A DNA stretch of 35,713 bases from NCBI GenBank assembly GCA_003989075.1, contig RXIX01000024.1:1-35713 (forward strand), written 5' to 3'. This DNA is from Candidatus Competibacteraceae bacterium (GTDB lineage: Bacteria > Pseudomonadota > Gammaproteobacteria > Competibacterales > Competibacteraceae). How positions within the stretch are numbered: the stretch's first letter is position 1; every line of letters starts with the position of its first letter. The translations under genes were made by a program, and so were the position numbers. Positions 18,894 through 26,547 of this stretch are shown piece after piece. A model generated the notes under the pieces. That model did not search any database. It saw nothing but the letters and a program-made list of their open reading frames with translations, and was not told the DNA's origin.

Positions 18894-18924
18894 CATCCCC
18901 GCCCACGCGGGGATGCGTCGTTTT
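18894..18924 (+). terminator. Perfect 9-bp inverted repeat, probable terminator
   Basis: CATCCCCGC (18894-18902) and GCGGGGATG (18907-18915) form a perfect stem with a 4-nt loop, followed after 5 nt by TTTT. It would end the prc-DUF815 transcript. The palindrome also resembles the core of type I-E CRISPR repeats, but only one copy is present. A second imperfect AT-rich inverted repeat (GGCGGAAAAAT with ATTTTTTTCGCC, about 18938-18957) lies just after it. Confidence 0.55.
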
Positions 18925-18963: not shown

Positions 18964-18991
18964 TGTAAGAAACGCCGCCGCGTTTCGACTA
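18964..18991 (+). promoter_or_regulatory. Candidate ECF sigma promoter of the buf operon
   Basis: TGTAAGA at 18964-18970 and CGACTA at 18986-18991 are separated by 15 bp. A GTAA-type -35 with a CG-starting -10 is the usual pattern of ECF sigma promoters and fits regulation by the ECF sigma factor encoded at the end of the same operon. A start point near 18998 would give a leader of about 95 nt before the bufA start codon. The match is by eye, without other promoters to compare. Confidence 0.5.
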
Positions 18992-19031
18992 ACCCACTAT
19001 CGAACGCAACAACACGCGCTTCGTATCCAAA

Positions 19032-19051
19032 CTCCTCCACTGCGGGAGGAG
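19032..19051 (+). promoter_or_regulatory. Hairpin in the bufA leader
   Basis: CTCCTCC (19032-19038) pairs perfectly with GGAGGAG (19045-19051) across a 6-nt loop in the presumed 5' untranslated region. The GGAGGAG half is a perfect Shine-Dalgarno-like sequence but lies about 41 nt before the bufA ATG, too far to serve it; the GAGG at about 19080 is used instead. A role in mRNA stability or translation control is a guess. Confidence 0.35.
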
Positions 19052-19092
19052 ATCGCCAAGCCCGATCCACGACTGATGATGAGGCACTCACC

Positions 19093-19401
19093 ATGAGCAA
19101 GACCCAGACTTCGACGACTCTTTCCGCCACTGCCCTGGCCCTGGCCCTCGGTACGGCGTTGACCCTGTCCGCCGCGCCAGCAGCGGCCGCCGACGACAAT
19201 GAAAAATGTTTCGGCGTCGCCCTCAAGGGCAAGAACGACTGCGCCGCCGGTCCCGGCACTTCCTGCGCCGGCACCTCCAAGACCGACTATCAGGGCAGCG
19301 CCTGGAAATACGTCCCCAAGGGCAGTTGTGAAAAGACCGCCTCCCCGACCTCGCCGACCGGTTACGGCCAGCTCGCCGCGTTCAAGGATAAGCAGTCCTG
19401 A
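19093..19401 (+). CDS. bufA: Bufferin-type RiPP precursor, DUF2282 (BufA/GigP)
   Basis: Precursor peptide of 102 residues. Residues 1-33 form a Sec-type signal peptide ([20 protein letters not shown] is its core), so the product is periplasmic. The mature part has the DUF2282 pattern with four cysteines: Cys39 and Cys50 in [14 protein letters not shown], Cys58 in TSCAGTS and Cys79 in KGSCE, with [15 protein letters not shown] conserved. In characterised bufferins the partner MNIO enzyme converts the two central cysteines to thiooxazoles, and the peptide binds copper. By position these would be Cys50 and Cys58. In Cupriavidus metallidurans the homologous gene is gigP in a gold/copper-induced operon. 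The ATG at 19093 has GAGG about 9 nt upstream; the longer frame upstream is not coding. Confidence 0.88.
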
Positions 19402-19452
19402 TCACGCCCGGCTGCTGCTGAACGCACAGGACCGCTTTGAGGAATACCCGCG

Positions 19453-20370
19453 ATGACGATGATGCAGCCTTTCCCTGGCGAAACACCCGCGCGGGGTATT
19501 CCCTCCAGACCGCGACATAGCTGCCTGCCGGCCCGTGCCGGCCTGGGCCTGAAGCCGCAACAGGTCGCCGACATCCTGGCACAGCAGCCGGATGTCGGTT
19601 TTTTCGAGATTCATGCCGAAAACTATCTGGTCGCCGGCGGTCCCTTTCATCACCACCTGAGCTGCATCCGCGACCGCTACCCGCTATCGATTCACGGTGT
19701 CGGGCTGTCCATTGGCGGTGAAGGACCGCTGGATAGTGCTCATCTCGACCGTCTGGCGGCGCTGATGGACCGCTATCAACCGCAGGCTTTCTCCGAACAT
19801 CTCGCCTGGTCGAGCCATGGCGGGGTGTTTTTCAACGATCTGCTGCCGCTGGCCTATGACCACGCCACGCTGATCCAGGTCTGCGACCATATCGACCAGG
19901 TTCAGCAGCGCCTGCAGTGGCGCCTGCTGCTGGAGAATCCGGCTACCTATGTTGAATTTGCCGCCTCGACCTGGGACGAAGCCAGCTTCATCAGCGAGAT
20001 TGTGCGCCGCACCGGCTGCGGCCTGCTGCTCGACATCAACAACGCCCATGTTTCCGCCGTCAATCATCAGCGCGACGCCCGGCACTACATCAGCGCGCTG
20101 CCGCTGGCGCAGGTCGGTGAAATTCACCTGGCCGGGTTCAGTGTCGATCACGATGCCGCTGGTGCAGAACTGCTGATCGACACGCACGGCGCGCCGGTCG
20201 ATGACGCGGTGTGGGCACTCTACGCTTTCGCACTGCAGCACCTGGGACCGACGCCAACCCTGATCGAGCGCGACCAGAATATTCCGCCGCTGCCGGTCCT
20301 GGTCGCCGAGGCGCACCATGCCGACCGGTTGCTCAGTGGTGAACCGCTGGTCACGGAGCTGTCAGCTTGA
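19453..20370 (+). CDS. bufB: DUF692 multinuclear non-haem iron oxygenase (BufB/GigA)
   Basis: MNIO enzyme of 305 residues with a TIM-barrel fold, expected to modify cysteines of the adjacent BufA precursor. Family metal-site segments appear in order: RAGLGLK, FFEIHAENYLVAGGP, SIHGVGLSIGGEG, FSEHLAWSSHGG, LLLENPATY, LLLDINNAHVSAVNHQ, GEIHLAGFSVDHD, LIDTHGAPV and LIERDQNIP. All the usual His, Asp and Glu ligand positions seem to be kept; the AGF tripeptide replaces the commoner AGH. The start ATG at 19453 has GAGGAA about 8 nt upstream, 51 nt after bufA. The stop overlaps the TTG start of bufC (TTGA). Methanobactin MbnB is a relative, but the DUF2282 and DUF2063 neighbours define the bufferin branch. 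Confidence 0.93.
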   Translation: MTMMQPFPGETPARGIPSRPRHSCLPARAGLGLKPQQVADILAQQPDVGFFEIHAENYLVAGGPFHHHLSCIRDRYPLSIHGVGLSIGGEGPLDSAHLDRLAALMDRYQPQAFSEHLAWSSHGGVFFNDLLPLAYDHATLIQVCDHIDQVQQRLQWRLLLENPATYVEFAASTWDEASFISEIVRRTGCGLLLDINNAHVSAVNHQRDARHYISALPLAQVGEIHLAGFSVDHDAAGAELLIDTHGAPVDDAVWALYAFALQHLGPTPTLIERDQNIPPLPVLVAEAHHADRLLSGEPLVTELSA

Positions 20371-21269
20371 GCAACCAACAGTCACAGGACTTGCGCTTTT
20401 CGTCATTCCCGCGTATGCGGGAATCCAGTAGCGTGTTGAAAAGAATGGATACCTGCTTTCACGGGAATGACGGAAAAAGTCAGGTAAGCGAAAGTCCTGA
20501 GTCATTGCAACAGGCCTTCGCCGCAGCCCTGCTCGATCCCGATCTGCCCTGTCCGCCGGGTCTGCGCACCTGGAATGGTTCCGACCCCGCGCAGCGCTTT
20601 GCCGTCTATCGCAATAACGTGCTGGTCTCACTGGTCGATGCACTGGCGGATACGTTTCCGGTCACCCGGGAACTGGTTGGCGACGAGTTTTTCCGGGCCA
20701 TGGCCAGCCTGTTTGTGCGCCAGATGCCACCGCGTTCCACCCAACTGGTCGATTACGGCGCCGGGATGCCGGCTTTTATCGCCACCTTTGCCCCTGCTGC
20801 CAGCGTGCCCTATCTGGCCGATGTGGCCCGGTTGGAATACCTGCGCATCCAGGCCTGCCACGCCGCCGATGCTCTGCCGCTGGCGGCGGAACAGTTGGCC
20901 CGGGTGCTGGCGCAACCGGAGCAATTGCCTGCCCTGCGCCTGATCGCACATCCGGCGCTGCGCCTGCTGTGCTCGCCGTATGCCATCGTGTCGCTGTGGG
21001 CCGCCCATCAGGGCCTGATCGCACTCGGCGACGTCGAGCCCTATCACCCGGAATCCGCCCTGGTGGTGCGGGCTGGGCTGGAGGTGGAAGTCATAACTAT
21101 GCCGCCCGGGGGAGACATTCTGCTCGCCCATCTGCTCGATGGCCTGAGCCTGGGCGAAGCCGCCGCGCGGGCCAGCACCGCCTGTGATCATTTTGATCTC
21201 ACCGCCAATCTGGCGCTGCTGCTGCGTCATGGCGCCTTTTCCGCGCTGCATCTACCCGTGGAGACCTGA
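20367..21269 (+). CDS. bufC: DUF2063 RiPP partner protein (BufC/GigB), with repeat-encoded insertion
   Basis: Putative DNA-binding-like DUF2063 protein that forms the substrate-recognition partner of BufB; 300 residues from the TTG at 20367. The start overlaps the bufB stop (TTGA) and has GGAG 8 nt upstream. The conserved domain begins at ESLQQAFAAALLDPDL (residue 45) and continues with RFAVYRNNVLVSLVDALADTFP, GDEFFRAMA, SLFVRQMPP and YLADVARLEYLR, all typical. Residues ~8-44 are encoded by a palindromic repeat element (20385-20499) and look foreign (SSFPRMRESSS, HGNDGK). An in-frame TTG at 20505 or ATG at 20445 could be used instead. The core domain appears intact, so the gene is probably functional. 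Confidence 0.88.
   Translation: MSNQQSQDLRFSSFPRMRESSSVLKRMDTCFHGNDGKSQVSESPESLQQAFAAALLDPDLPCPPGLRTWNGSDPAQRFAVYRNNVLVSLVDALADTFPVTRELVGDEFFRAMASLFVRQMPPRSTQLVDYGAGMPAFIATFAPAASVPYLADVARLEYLRIQACHAADALPLAAEQLARVLAQPEQLPALRLIAHPALRLLCSPYAIVSLWAAHQGLIALGDVEPYHPESALVVRAGLEVEVITMPPGGDILLAHLLDGLSLGEAAARASTACDHFDLTANLALLLRHGAFSALHLPVET
20385..20499. repeat. Palindromic MITE/REP-like element inside bufC
   Basis: Terminal inverted repeats CAGGACTTGCGCTT (20385-20398) and AAGCGAAAGTCCTG (20486-20499) match at 13 of 14 positions. Inside, ATTCCCGC/GCGGGAAT (20405-20412, 20417-20424) forms a perfect hairpin that reads ATTCCC-N8-GGGAAT, the pattern of the Neisseria dRS3 repeat and of similar intergenic repeats in Proteobacteria. 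TCATTCCCG (20403-20411) can also pair with CGGGAATGA (20462-20470), so the whole element can fold into one long stem. It has no ORF of its own. It lies in the 5' coding region of bufC and keeps the frame open. Confidence 0.8.
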
Positions 21270-21271
21270 AC

Positions 21272-21808
21272 TTGAATACCGTAATCACATCAAACATGCC
21301 CACACCAGACGCGGCCGCTCCGATTCCCCGCTGGGCACACTTCATCCCGCTGATCCTGCCACTGCTCGCACGCATTCCCGATTCACTGATCGCGCTGCTC
21401 GGGCGCTTTTCCATCGCCGCCGTGTTCTGGAAGTCGGGGCAAACCAAGATCGAGGGCCTGAGCATTGATCTGGTTGATGGCAGCTTCAGTCTCGGCATTC
21501 CCCGCCTGTCCGACTCGGCAGTCGCCCTGTTCCGCGATGAATACCGCTTGCCCCTGCTGCCAGCGGAACTCGCCGCACCACTGGCCGCCAGTGCGGAACA
21601 CGTTTTCCCGATCCTGCTGCTGCTCGGGCTGGCGACCCGCTTCTCGGCCCTGGCATTGCTCGGCATGACCCTGGTGATTCAGATCTTTGTCTATCCGGAC
21701 GCCTATCCCACACATGGTGTCTGGGCAGCTGTACTACTCTATCTGGTAGCCAGGGGACCTGGCGTACTGGCCATCGATCACTGGATTGCCCGGCATTACG
21801 CGCGGTAG
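21272..21808 (+). CDS. bufD: DoxX-family membrane protein of the buf operon (BufD/GigT)
   Basis: Integral membrane protein of 178 residues, DoxX family. Hydrophobic segments at about 37-53 (SLIALLGRFSIAAVFW), 105-125 (HVFPILLLLGLATRF), 127-142 (ALALLGMTLVIQIFV) and 148-165 match the four-helix DoxX fold, and the family signature LGRFSIAAVFWKSGQTK is present. In C. metallidurans the equivalent gene closes the gigPABT operon. The start is TTG at 21272, 2 nt after bufC, with GGAG 9 nt upstream; ATG at 21296 is an alternative. Its role in bufferin export, redox or assembly is not known from sequence. Confidence 0.85.
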   Translation: MNTVITSNMPTPDAAAPIPRWAHFIPLILPLLARIPDSLIALLGRFSIAAVFWKSGQTKIEGLSIDLVDGSFSLGIPRLSDSAVALFRDEYRLPLLPAELAAPLAASAEHVFPILLLLGLATRFSALALLGMTLVIQIFVYPDAYPTHGVWAAVLLYLVARGPGVLAIDHWIARHYAR

Positions 21809-21865
21809 GCAGGTGCCATTCCGCTCCTGCCATCCCCTTCATGCCACCGCCGATACAGGAAAACC

Positions 21866-22498
21866 GTGATCAGCACTGCACAGACGGCACCGCGCGCCGA
21901 GGCGCCAACCGCCGGAACCTTATGGGATCCCGCCTTTCTCGCGCAGTTGCGCCGCGACATGGTCCGCTTTGCCCAATTGCAGCTTCGCGACCCGGCCGGC
22001 GCCGAGGATGCGGTTCAGGAAGCCCTGGCCGCAGCCCTGAGCGGGCAGGGCCGCTTCAGCGGGCAGGCCGCTTTGAAAACCTGGGTGTTTGCCATTCTCA
22101 AAAACAAGATCGTGGATACCCTGCGGCTGCGGCAGCGCATGGCGACAATCACGCCCTTGGTCGCCGACGACAAGGATGAGGAGGACGATTTCGCGGTGCT
22201 GTTCAACACCAGGGGACACTGGCGGGCGGAAGACCGGCCCCACGCCTGGGGCGATCCCGAAACCACCCTGGCCCAGCAGCAGTTCTGGGCGGTCTTCGAG
22301 GCCTGCCTGACACGACTGCCCGACTCCGTGGCCCGGGTGTTTATGATGCGCGAGTTCCTGGACTTTGATACGCCGGGTATCTGCCAGGAACTGGCCATCA
22401 CCACCAGCCACTGCCACGTCATCCTGCACCGTGCCCGCATGCGTCTGCGGCTCTGCCTGGAACAGCGTTGGTTCACCACCGAGGCTCACCCATGTTGA
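21866..22498 (+). CDS. ECF-type RNA polymerase sigma factor
   Basis: Sigma70-family protein of 210 residues with only regions 2 and 4, as in ECF sigma factors. Region 2 is DMVRFAQLQLRDPAGAEDAVQEALAAA then LKTWVFAILKNKIVDTLR (the -10 recognition helix). A linker rich in acidic residues (DDKDEEDDF) follows. Region 4 is FEACLTRLPDSVARVFMMREFLDFDTPGICQELAITTSHCHVILHRARMRLR, the -35 helix-turn-helix. Start is GTG at 21866 with AGGAAA upstream. It comes 57 nt after bufD and overlaps the zinc-finger gene downstream. In C. metallidurans the ECF factor RpoQ serves gigPABT; by context this protein should control the buf promoter at 18964-18991. Confidence 0.9.
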   Translation: MISTAQTAPRAEAPTAGTLWDPAFLAQLRRDMVRFAQLQLRDPAGAEDAVQEALAAALSGQGRFSGQAALKTWVFAILKNKIVDTLRLRQRMATITPLVADDKDEEDDFAVLFNTRGHWRAEDRPHAWGDPETTLAQQQFWAVFEACLTRLPDSVARVFMMREFLDFDTPGICQELAITTSHCHVILHRARMRLRLCLEQRWFTTEAHPC

Positions 22499-22701
22499 CC
22501 TGCCATCACGTCACACACCTGCTGTCCGAAGCCCAGGATCGGCCGCTGTCCTGGCGCGAACGCATTCCGCTCACTATCCATCTGCTGATGTGCCCAGGAT
22601 GCAACAATTTTCGCCAGCAGATGACGTTCCTGCGCCAGGCCACGCGCCAGTACGCGCAAGGGCAAGCGGATTGCACTGATTCAAAGCCACCGCCGGACTG
22701 A
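22492..22701 (+). CDS. Small zf-HC2 anti-sigma-like protein
   Basis: Protein of 69 residues overlapping the sigma gene by 7 nt. The sequence has Cys4, His5, His6, a helix, then HLLMCPGCNNF, which is the H-x3-C-x2-C zinc motif of anti-sigma factors. No transmembrane segment follows, so it is a soluble mini anti-sigma rather than a membrane-bound one. A thiol- or metal-sensitive zinc site next to a metal-responsive RiPP operon suggests that the finger itself is the sensor; this is inference. ATG at 22492 is chosen; an upstream in-frame GTG at 22468 lies inside the sigma gene. Confidence 0.8.
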   Translation: MLTCHHVTHLLSEAQDRPLSWRERIPLTIHLLMCPGCNNFRQQMTFLRQATRQYAQGQADCTDSKPPPD

Positions 22702-22744
22702 GCGCTGCCGTTCCGATTGCCGCAACGCCAGACAGCGCGCAAAA

Positions 22745-22780
22745 AAAACCGTTCCGGGCACATATACCCGGAACGGTTTT
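22745..22780. terminator. Perfect bidirectional terminator
   Basis: AAAACCGTTCCGGG (22745-22758) and CCCGGAACGGTTTT (22767-22780) are a perfect 14-bp inverted repeat with an 8-nt loop, giving a GC stem flanked by A and T tracts on both strands. It sits between the convergent ends of the buf operon and the UPF0114 gene and can stop transcription from both sides. Confidence 0.92.
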
Positions 22781-22819
22781 GCATTTCAGCGCACCGGGCG
22801 GTGCGCCGTTCCCTTGCCC

Positions 22820-23446: not shown

Positions 23447-23490
23447 GTGACAACGCCGCTTGGAACGATAATACTTTCGATCAGTTCCAA
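23447..23490 (+). promoter_or_regulatory. Candidate promoter and operator-like dyad of the H-NOX operon
   Basis: GTGACA (23447-23452) and TAATAC (23469-23474) are spaced by 16 bp and may be the promoter. A perfect inverted repeat TTGGAAC (23460-23466) and GTTCCAA (23484-23490), with a 17-bp spacer, straddles the -10. Its position is right for a repressor or for control by a dimeric regulator. The match to a known operator is not evident. Confidence 0.35.
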
Positions 23491-23521
23491 TCCGCATCGC
23501 GCATTCGCCGGAGGTTTCCGT

Positions 23522-24078
23522 ATGTACGGCATGGTTAACCGGGCTCTGGAAGATATGGTCACCGAACAGTTCGGCGAGGACACCTGGGAGCGAATCAAGG
23601 CGGCCGCTGGAGTAGATGTCGAGGTCTTCATCACCAACGAAGGCTATCCCGACGAACTCACCTACCGGTTGGCGGCGGCGGCCAGCACCCTCCTCGGCCA
23701 GCCGGTGCCGGTGCTGCTGGAAGCCTTTGGCATGCACTGGGTGCTCAAGACCGCTCGCGAAGGCTATGGCGACCTGATGGATGCCCATGGCAGCACCCTG
23801 CCCGAATTCCTGCTTAACCTGCCCAACTTCCACACCCGGGTCAGCCTGATTTTCCCCTATCTGGAACCGCCGCGCTTTGCCTGCAGCGATGTCAGCGCAC
23901 AGTCGCTGCGCCTGCACTACTACTCGCATCGCGCTGGCCTGACGCCCTTCGTGCGCGGGCTGCTGCAGGGCCTGGGGCAGATGTTCGCCACCCCGATCAC
24001 CATCGAACAGGAGGCCGATCGTGCCACCGGTGCCGACCACGACATCTTCCACGTCTCCTGGATACCGCCGGCGACCGC

Positions 24079-24082
<4 letters not shown>
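23522..24082 (+). CDS. H-NOX haem-binding gas sensor
   Basis: Stand-alone H-NOX (haem NO/O2 binding) protein of 186 residues, normal for bacterial members. The proximal haem ligand is His104 in LPNFHTRVSLIFP and the propionate-binding motif Y-x-S-x-R is Tyr133, Ser135, Arg137 in HYYSHRAGL. The N-terminus MYGMVNRALEDMVTEQFGEDTWERI is typical. I see no obvious distal tyrosine just after the YxSxR motif, which would favour NO over O2, as in facultative organisms; this is inference. GGAGG lies about 8 nt before the ATG. The stop overlaps the start of the partner kinase (ATGA), the usual H-NOX operon order. Confidence 0.93.

Positions 24083-26517
<2,435 letters not shown>

Positions 26518-26547
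<30 letters not shown>

Follow-up and report, generated by a model that had tools for sequence, protein, structure and literature searches.

How does a bacterium of the family Competibacteraceae control a gene block that resembles a bufferin operon, and what signal might switch it on? We addressed this question for one contig (C24) of a 3.4-Mb genome in 278 contigs; the window is this whole stretch of 35,713 nucleotides. A sequence-only reading had proposed a strand-coherent block of six genes for a DUF2282 precursor, a DUF692 enzyme, a DUF2063 partner, a DoxX protein, an ECF sigma factor and a zf-HC2 protein. Profile searches with Pfam and NCBIfam confirmed all six in place, each with a match above the curated cut-offs (Table 1). 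The co-oriented genes occupy a block (18965-22782) that runs from a putative promoter to a palindrome, with overlaps of a few bases between bufB and bufC and between the sigma and anti-sigma genes. The start codon is TTG for bufC (at 20367) and doxX, and GTG for the sigma gene. Against the narrower NCBIfam models (HvfC, HvfX and PRK sigma), BufC, DoxX and the sigma factor stayed below the cut-offs. Neither BufC nor the anti-sigma protein had a significant match in PDB sequence searches, and an Rfam search of the region matched no family.

Table 1. Features of the operon and of related loci. Scores are followed by the cut-off of the model in brackets; positions refer to the window unless a locus is named.
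Feature	Position	Strand	Support
Putative sigmaE/MseR-class promoter, GTAAGAAAC-N12-CGACTAAC, about 100 bp before bufA	18965..18993	+	
bufA, DUF2282 (Buf1) precursor, 102 aa, signal peptide, four Cys	19093..19401	+	PF10048, E 6.8e-25, 87.3 bits (22.4)
bufB, MNIO (DUF692) maturase, 305 aa	19453..20370	+	PF05114, 346 bits (25); NF050167 MNIO_BufB, 376.5 bits (310); PDB 3bww, E 9.7e-41
bufC, DUF2063 partner, 300 aa as read including 40 MITE codons	20367..21269	+	PF09836, 98.6 bits (27.2)
MITE, 115 bp, ends CAGGACTT/AAGTCCTG, AGTCA target duplication, in frame in bufC	20385..20499	.	
doxX-family membrane protein, 178 aa	21272..21808	+	PF07681, 61.5 bits (23.6)
ECF sigma factor, 210 aa	21866..22498	+	TIGR02943, 262.6 bits (162.2); Pfam Sigma70_r2/r4 above curated cut-offs
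Soluble ZAS-type (zf-HC2) anti-sigma factor, 69 aa	22492..22701	+	NF052368 antisigmaE, 78.4 bits (50); Pfam zf-HC2, 30.7 bits (22.2)
Palindrome, probably a bidirectional terminator, shared with the convergent UPF0114 gene	22739..22782	.	z -5.1
TVP38-disulfide-oxidoreductase fusion gene	L037:775-2916		
TVP38-disulfide-oxidoreductase fusion gene	L041:647-2788		
TVP38-disulfide-oxidoreductase fusion gene	L043:899-3109		

The precursor has exactly four cysteines, as had been claimed, and an N-terminus that we judged from its sequence to be signal-peptide-like. We collected 34 further precursors from relatives, of which 31 retain the four-cysteine pattern; the other three, from L056, L064 and L067, have six cysteines and are of another type. 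bufA and bufB are the only DUF2282 and MNIO genes in the whole genome. Buf1 clusters combine a DUF2282 precursor, an MNIO enzyme and a DUF2063 protein and chelate copper by thiooxazoles (PMC12452194). Gene content therefore supports the assignment of the locus as a Buf1-type bufferin operon, and the proposed RiPP type was borne out. By analogy with these relatives, from which both the thiooxazole chemistry and the copper binding are taken, the BufA product is probably a modified, copper-binding periplasmic peptide, and this particular peptide would share their activity.

The activity of the maturation complex is not certain because BufC carries an insertion. Comparison with relatives revealed 120 bp added in frame, consisting of a MITE with inverted ends and a 5-bp target duplication (empty site LSNQQSLQQAFAAALLDPD versus MSDQRLFAAALLDPD in relatives). 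The MITE has 74 matches in its own genome, many of them about 96% identical, and more in five relatives. The added codons are close to the N-terminus of BufC, and one could argue that the operon is decaying, the insertion having ruined maturation and left BufA unmodified. However, the reading frame stays open, the MITE precedes the DUF2063 domain, which starts near residue 47, and every other gene is intact, and we regard decay as very unlikely.

We then considered the regulatory genes. The anti-sigma reading frame starts inside the sigma stop codon (ATGTTGA), and its 69-residue product carries C4 and H30-x3-C34-x2-C37, with numbering identical to that of meningococcal MseR. None of the four residues varies among the 45 sequences that we compared. 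In MseR, Cys4, Cys34 and Cys37 are important or essential while His30 is not (PMC2893595), and the related HrsE, of 67 residues, inhibits RpoE2 in Haemophilus influenzae (PMC7907618). Judged by its sequence, the pair is of the MseR/HrsE ZAS kind; that the 69-residue protein would inhibit its sigma factor is taken from these characterized relatives. The suggestion that it is a direct metal or thiol sensor is plausible. The nearest named relatives of the sigma factor are from a Gammaproteobacteria MAG and a Candidatus Competibacteraceae MAG.

The closest known counterpart is the rpoE operon of Neisseria meningitidis (NMB2140-NMB2145), which likewise joins a DoxX-family gene, an ECF sigma factor and a soluble ZAS anti-sigma factor in one operon. 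Its sigmaE/MseR system shares with our locus the Cys4/His30/Cys34/Cys37 set and a promoter of similar sequence and spacing (PMC2893595). The precursor differs, being of the EGKCG type in Neisseria and a DUF2282 protein here; the equivalent gonococcal cluster (gonophorin) makes a thiooxazole peptide (PMC13097082). H. influenzae resembles the locus in its ECF sigma factor RpoE2, its cytoplasmic ZAS anti-sigma factor HrsE and a DoxX-like operon in the regulon (PMC7907618), but there rpoE2-hrsE lies near msrAB and apart from the DoxX-like operon, and its autoregulation is very limited. Caulobacter-type Buf1 clusters have NrsF as the anti-sigma factor, whereas our locus encodes a soluble ZAS protein. 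A survey of MNIO clusters lists NrsF as well as sigma factors for the Buf1 type and nowhere mentions zf-HC2 (PMC12452194), so the pairing is a variant that has received little description and does not amount to a new kind: its parts are known, and a DUF2282 bufferin under MseR-type control is a recurrent variant combination of them. The locus would link DUF2282 bufferins to the stress switch of Neisseria and Haemophilus, a link absent from that survey.

The operon had originally been read as gig-type and copper-responsive, on the model of the gold- and copper-induced Cupriavidus gigPABT with RpoQ. The biosynthetic genes fit this reading, since gigPABT of Cupriavidus metallidurans encodes proteins identical in kind (DUF2282, MNIO, DUF2063 and DoxX), and gig operons are bufferin clusters induced by both metals. 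The regulatory genes speak against it. The rpoQ-rsqA genes of C. metallidurans are transcribed divergently from gigPABT, RsqA is predicted to be membrane-bound, and control of gig by RpoQ is not demonstrated (PMC10304878), whereas the pair in the window is co-oriented with the biosynthetic genes and of the MseR family, and its anti-sigma protein is soluble. A copper- and gold-responsive operon of the gig/RpoQ type is thus an unlikely description of the locus.

Control by the operon's own sigma factor, the other regulatory proposal of that reading, fared better. A search for a sigma-70-like promoter in the operon found none. The site upstream of bufA (in short form GTAAG-N16-CGACTAA) resembles the meningococcal sigmaE consensus GTMAGBWTT-N12/13-CGTCTAAH (PMC2893595), with 7 of 8 positions matching in the -10 element, the same 12-nt spacer and 6 of 9 positions in the -35 element, which departs from the Neisseria consensus at the other 3. 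No other exact match to GTAAG-N16-CGNCTAA occurs in the 3.4-Mb genome, which has three further sites with one mismatch. Within the family, every one of the six genomes with the sigma factor has at least one exact copy of the motif, versus 1 of 17 genomes lacking it; in genome G016 the motif is present and the sigma factor was not detected. By profile, the motif precedes bufA in 14 of 20 sigma-linked operons and in none of 28 unlinked ones (Fisher p 8e-8, a value inflated by the relatedness of the genomes, and with one genome, L041/L247, counted twice among the 20). Across the class, 41 sigma/anti-sigma loci gave 22 motif matches, with 1.5 expected from dinucleotide shuffles. Over the whole of 40 sigma-positive genomes, we counted 20 copies of the motif and 24 of its backward reading; the motif, not being in excess, is informative only together with its context, and we claim no genome-wide regulon. 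The promoter thus tracks the sigma factor, and autoregulation of the bufferin operon is well supported by sequence; the meningococcal operon is known to be autoregulated (PMC2893595). In the genome of L041, the promoter occurs twice in tandem upstream of bufA, 79 bp apart in a duplicated stretch.

Is the pair a dedicated bufferin regulator? Among the 80 nearest named sigma loci, the anti-sigma gene adjoins the sigma gene in 79, and an MNIO gene lies no more than 6 kb away in 17. Only one, in Trinickia fusca (L295), has the gene order of the window, without the motif. As the other 63 have no MNIO gene nearby, the pair is not dedicated to bufferins; it is a general module, which several lineages combine with bufferin operons in more than one arrangement, and a similar pairing occurs in, among others, Aromatoleum diolicum, Hydrogenophaga taeniospiralis, Prodigiosinella confusarubida and T. 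fusca. In three close relatives, a gene for a fusion of TVP38 (VTT) and a pyridine nucleotide-disulfide oxidoreductase (∼713 aa) lies between doxX and the sigma gene. The TVP38-oxidoreductase gene of the genome studied here (contig C44) has no motif upstream. In other relatives, the motif precedes genes for TVP38-disulfide-oxidoreductase, glutaredoxin, EGKCG-type MNIO precursors and a cysteine-rich repeat peptide. At L211 (G016:C152), a small secreted-looking peptide with NPCAAK repeats and no Pfam family is encoded behind an exact motif copy; it is possibly a further cysteine-rich RiPP precursor. At L214 (G004:C3:22685-22712), an exact copy is followed after about 60 bp by the gene of a radical SAM protein; the bufferin operon of G004 lies 3.2 kb downstream of this copy.

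Taken together, gene content, the ZAS residues and the co-occurrence of promoter and sigma factor lead us to consider it highly probable that the locus is a Buf1-type bufferin operon under a switch of the MseR/HrsE class. In the working that we propose, the zinc-loaded ZAS protein would keep the sigma factor inactive in the cytoplasm until the cysteines of its metal site are oxidized or displaced, either by a thiol oxidant or by a soft metal such as Cu(I), Au or Hg. The released sigma factor would fire the promoter at 18965, giving expression of BufABC-DoxX and, by read-through, of the sigma and anti-sigma factors, hence a positive loop with its own brake. Before Sec export, BufB and BufC would turn cysteines of BufA into thiooxazoles; once in the periplasm, the mature peptide would bind copper. 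The chemistry, the metal binding, the anti-sigma action and the autoregulation assumed here are taken from the literature on relatives.

Which signal acts on this switch we can only infer. The operon had been called copper-responsive, yet judging by the characterized relatives, oxidative or thiol stress is no less likely a trigger. It is conceivable, with a likelihood a little short of even, that envelope oxidative or thiol stress rather than metal is the signal and that the peptide guards against copper released or reduced under stress. Consistent with this, rpoE2 of H. influenzae, which controls msrAB, responds to both HOCl and H2O2 (PMC7907618), msrAB is also under sigmaE control in Neisseria (PMC2893595), and the motif stands ahead of disulfide oxidoreductase and glutaredoxin genes in relatives. 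On the other hand, the oxidants tested elicited no response of meningococcal sigmaE (PMC2893595), and the present genome, unlike the Neisseria regulon with its msrAB, offers no second exact promoter copy. More tentatively, one widespread ZAS-sigma switch of Beta- and Gammaproteobacteria could be a cytoplasmic soft-metal/thiol sensor over a shared set of genes, comprising DUF2282 and EGKCG thiooxazole metallophores, the TVP38-disulfide-oxidoreductase fusion, glutaredoxin and further cysteine-rich secreted peptides. If true, this connection across metallophores, oxidoreductase and glutaredoxin is one that the cited literature does not describe. For the control of bufferin operons, the MseR/HrsE-class switch proposed here offers a soluble candidate sensor of 69 residues with defined cysteines and a candidate promoter; with these, and with organisms that have a similar pairing, the choice between metal and oxidant becomes directly testable.

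The block had also been said to be closed by a perfect terminator. The palindrome downstream of the anti-sigma gene is real (folding energy -25.5 kcal/mol), but it is followed by 8 T for the opposite (minus) strand, which serves the convergent UPF0114 gene, and by only 4 T on the strand of the operon; it is thus at best a shared bidirectional terminator rather than a perfect one for the operon. At the other end, a terminator-like or REP-like hairpin, CATCCCCGCCCACGCGGGGATG (18894-18915), lies between a DUF815 gene and the operon promoter. Elsewhere in the window (23447-26547), the gene of an HNOB (Haem-NO-binding) protein overlaps a gene whose large product, a hybrid histidine kinase, combines PAS and receiver domains with an HNOBA region; the two proteins probably form a pair that senses nitric oxide or haem ligands.
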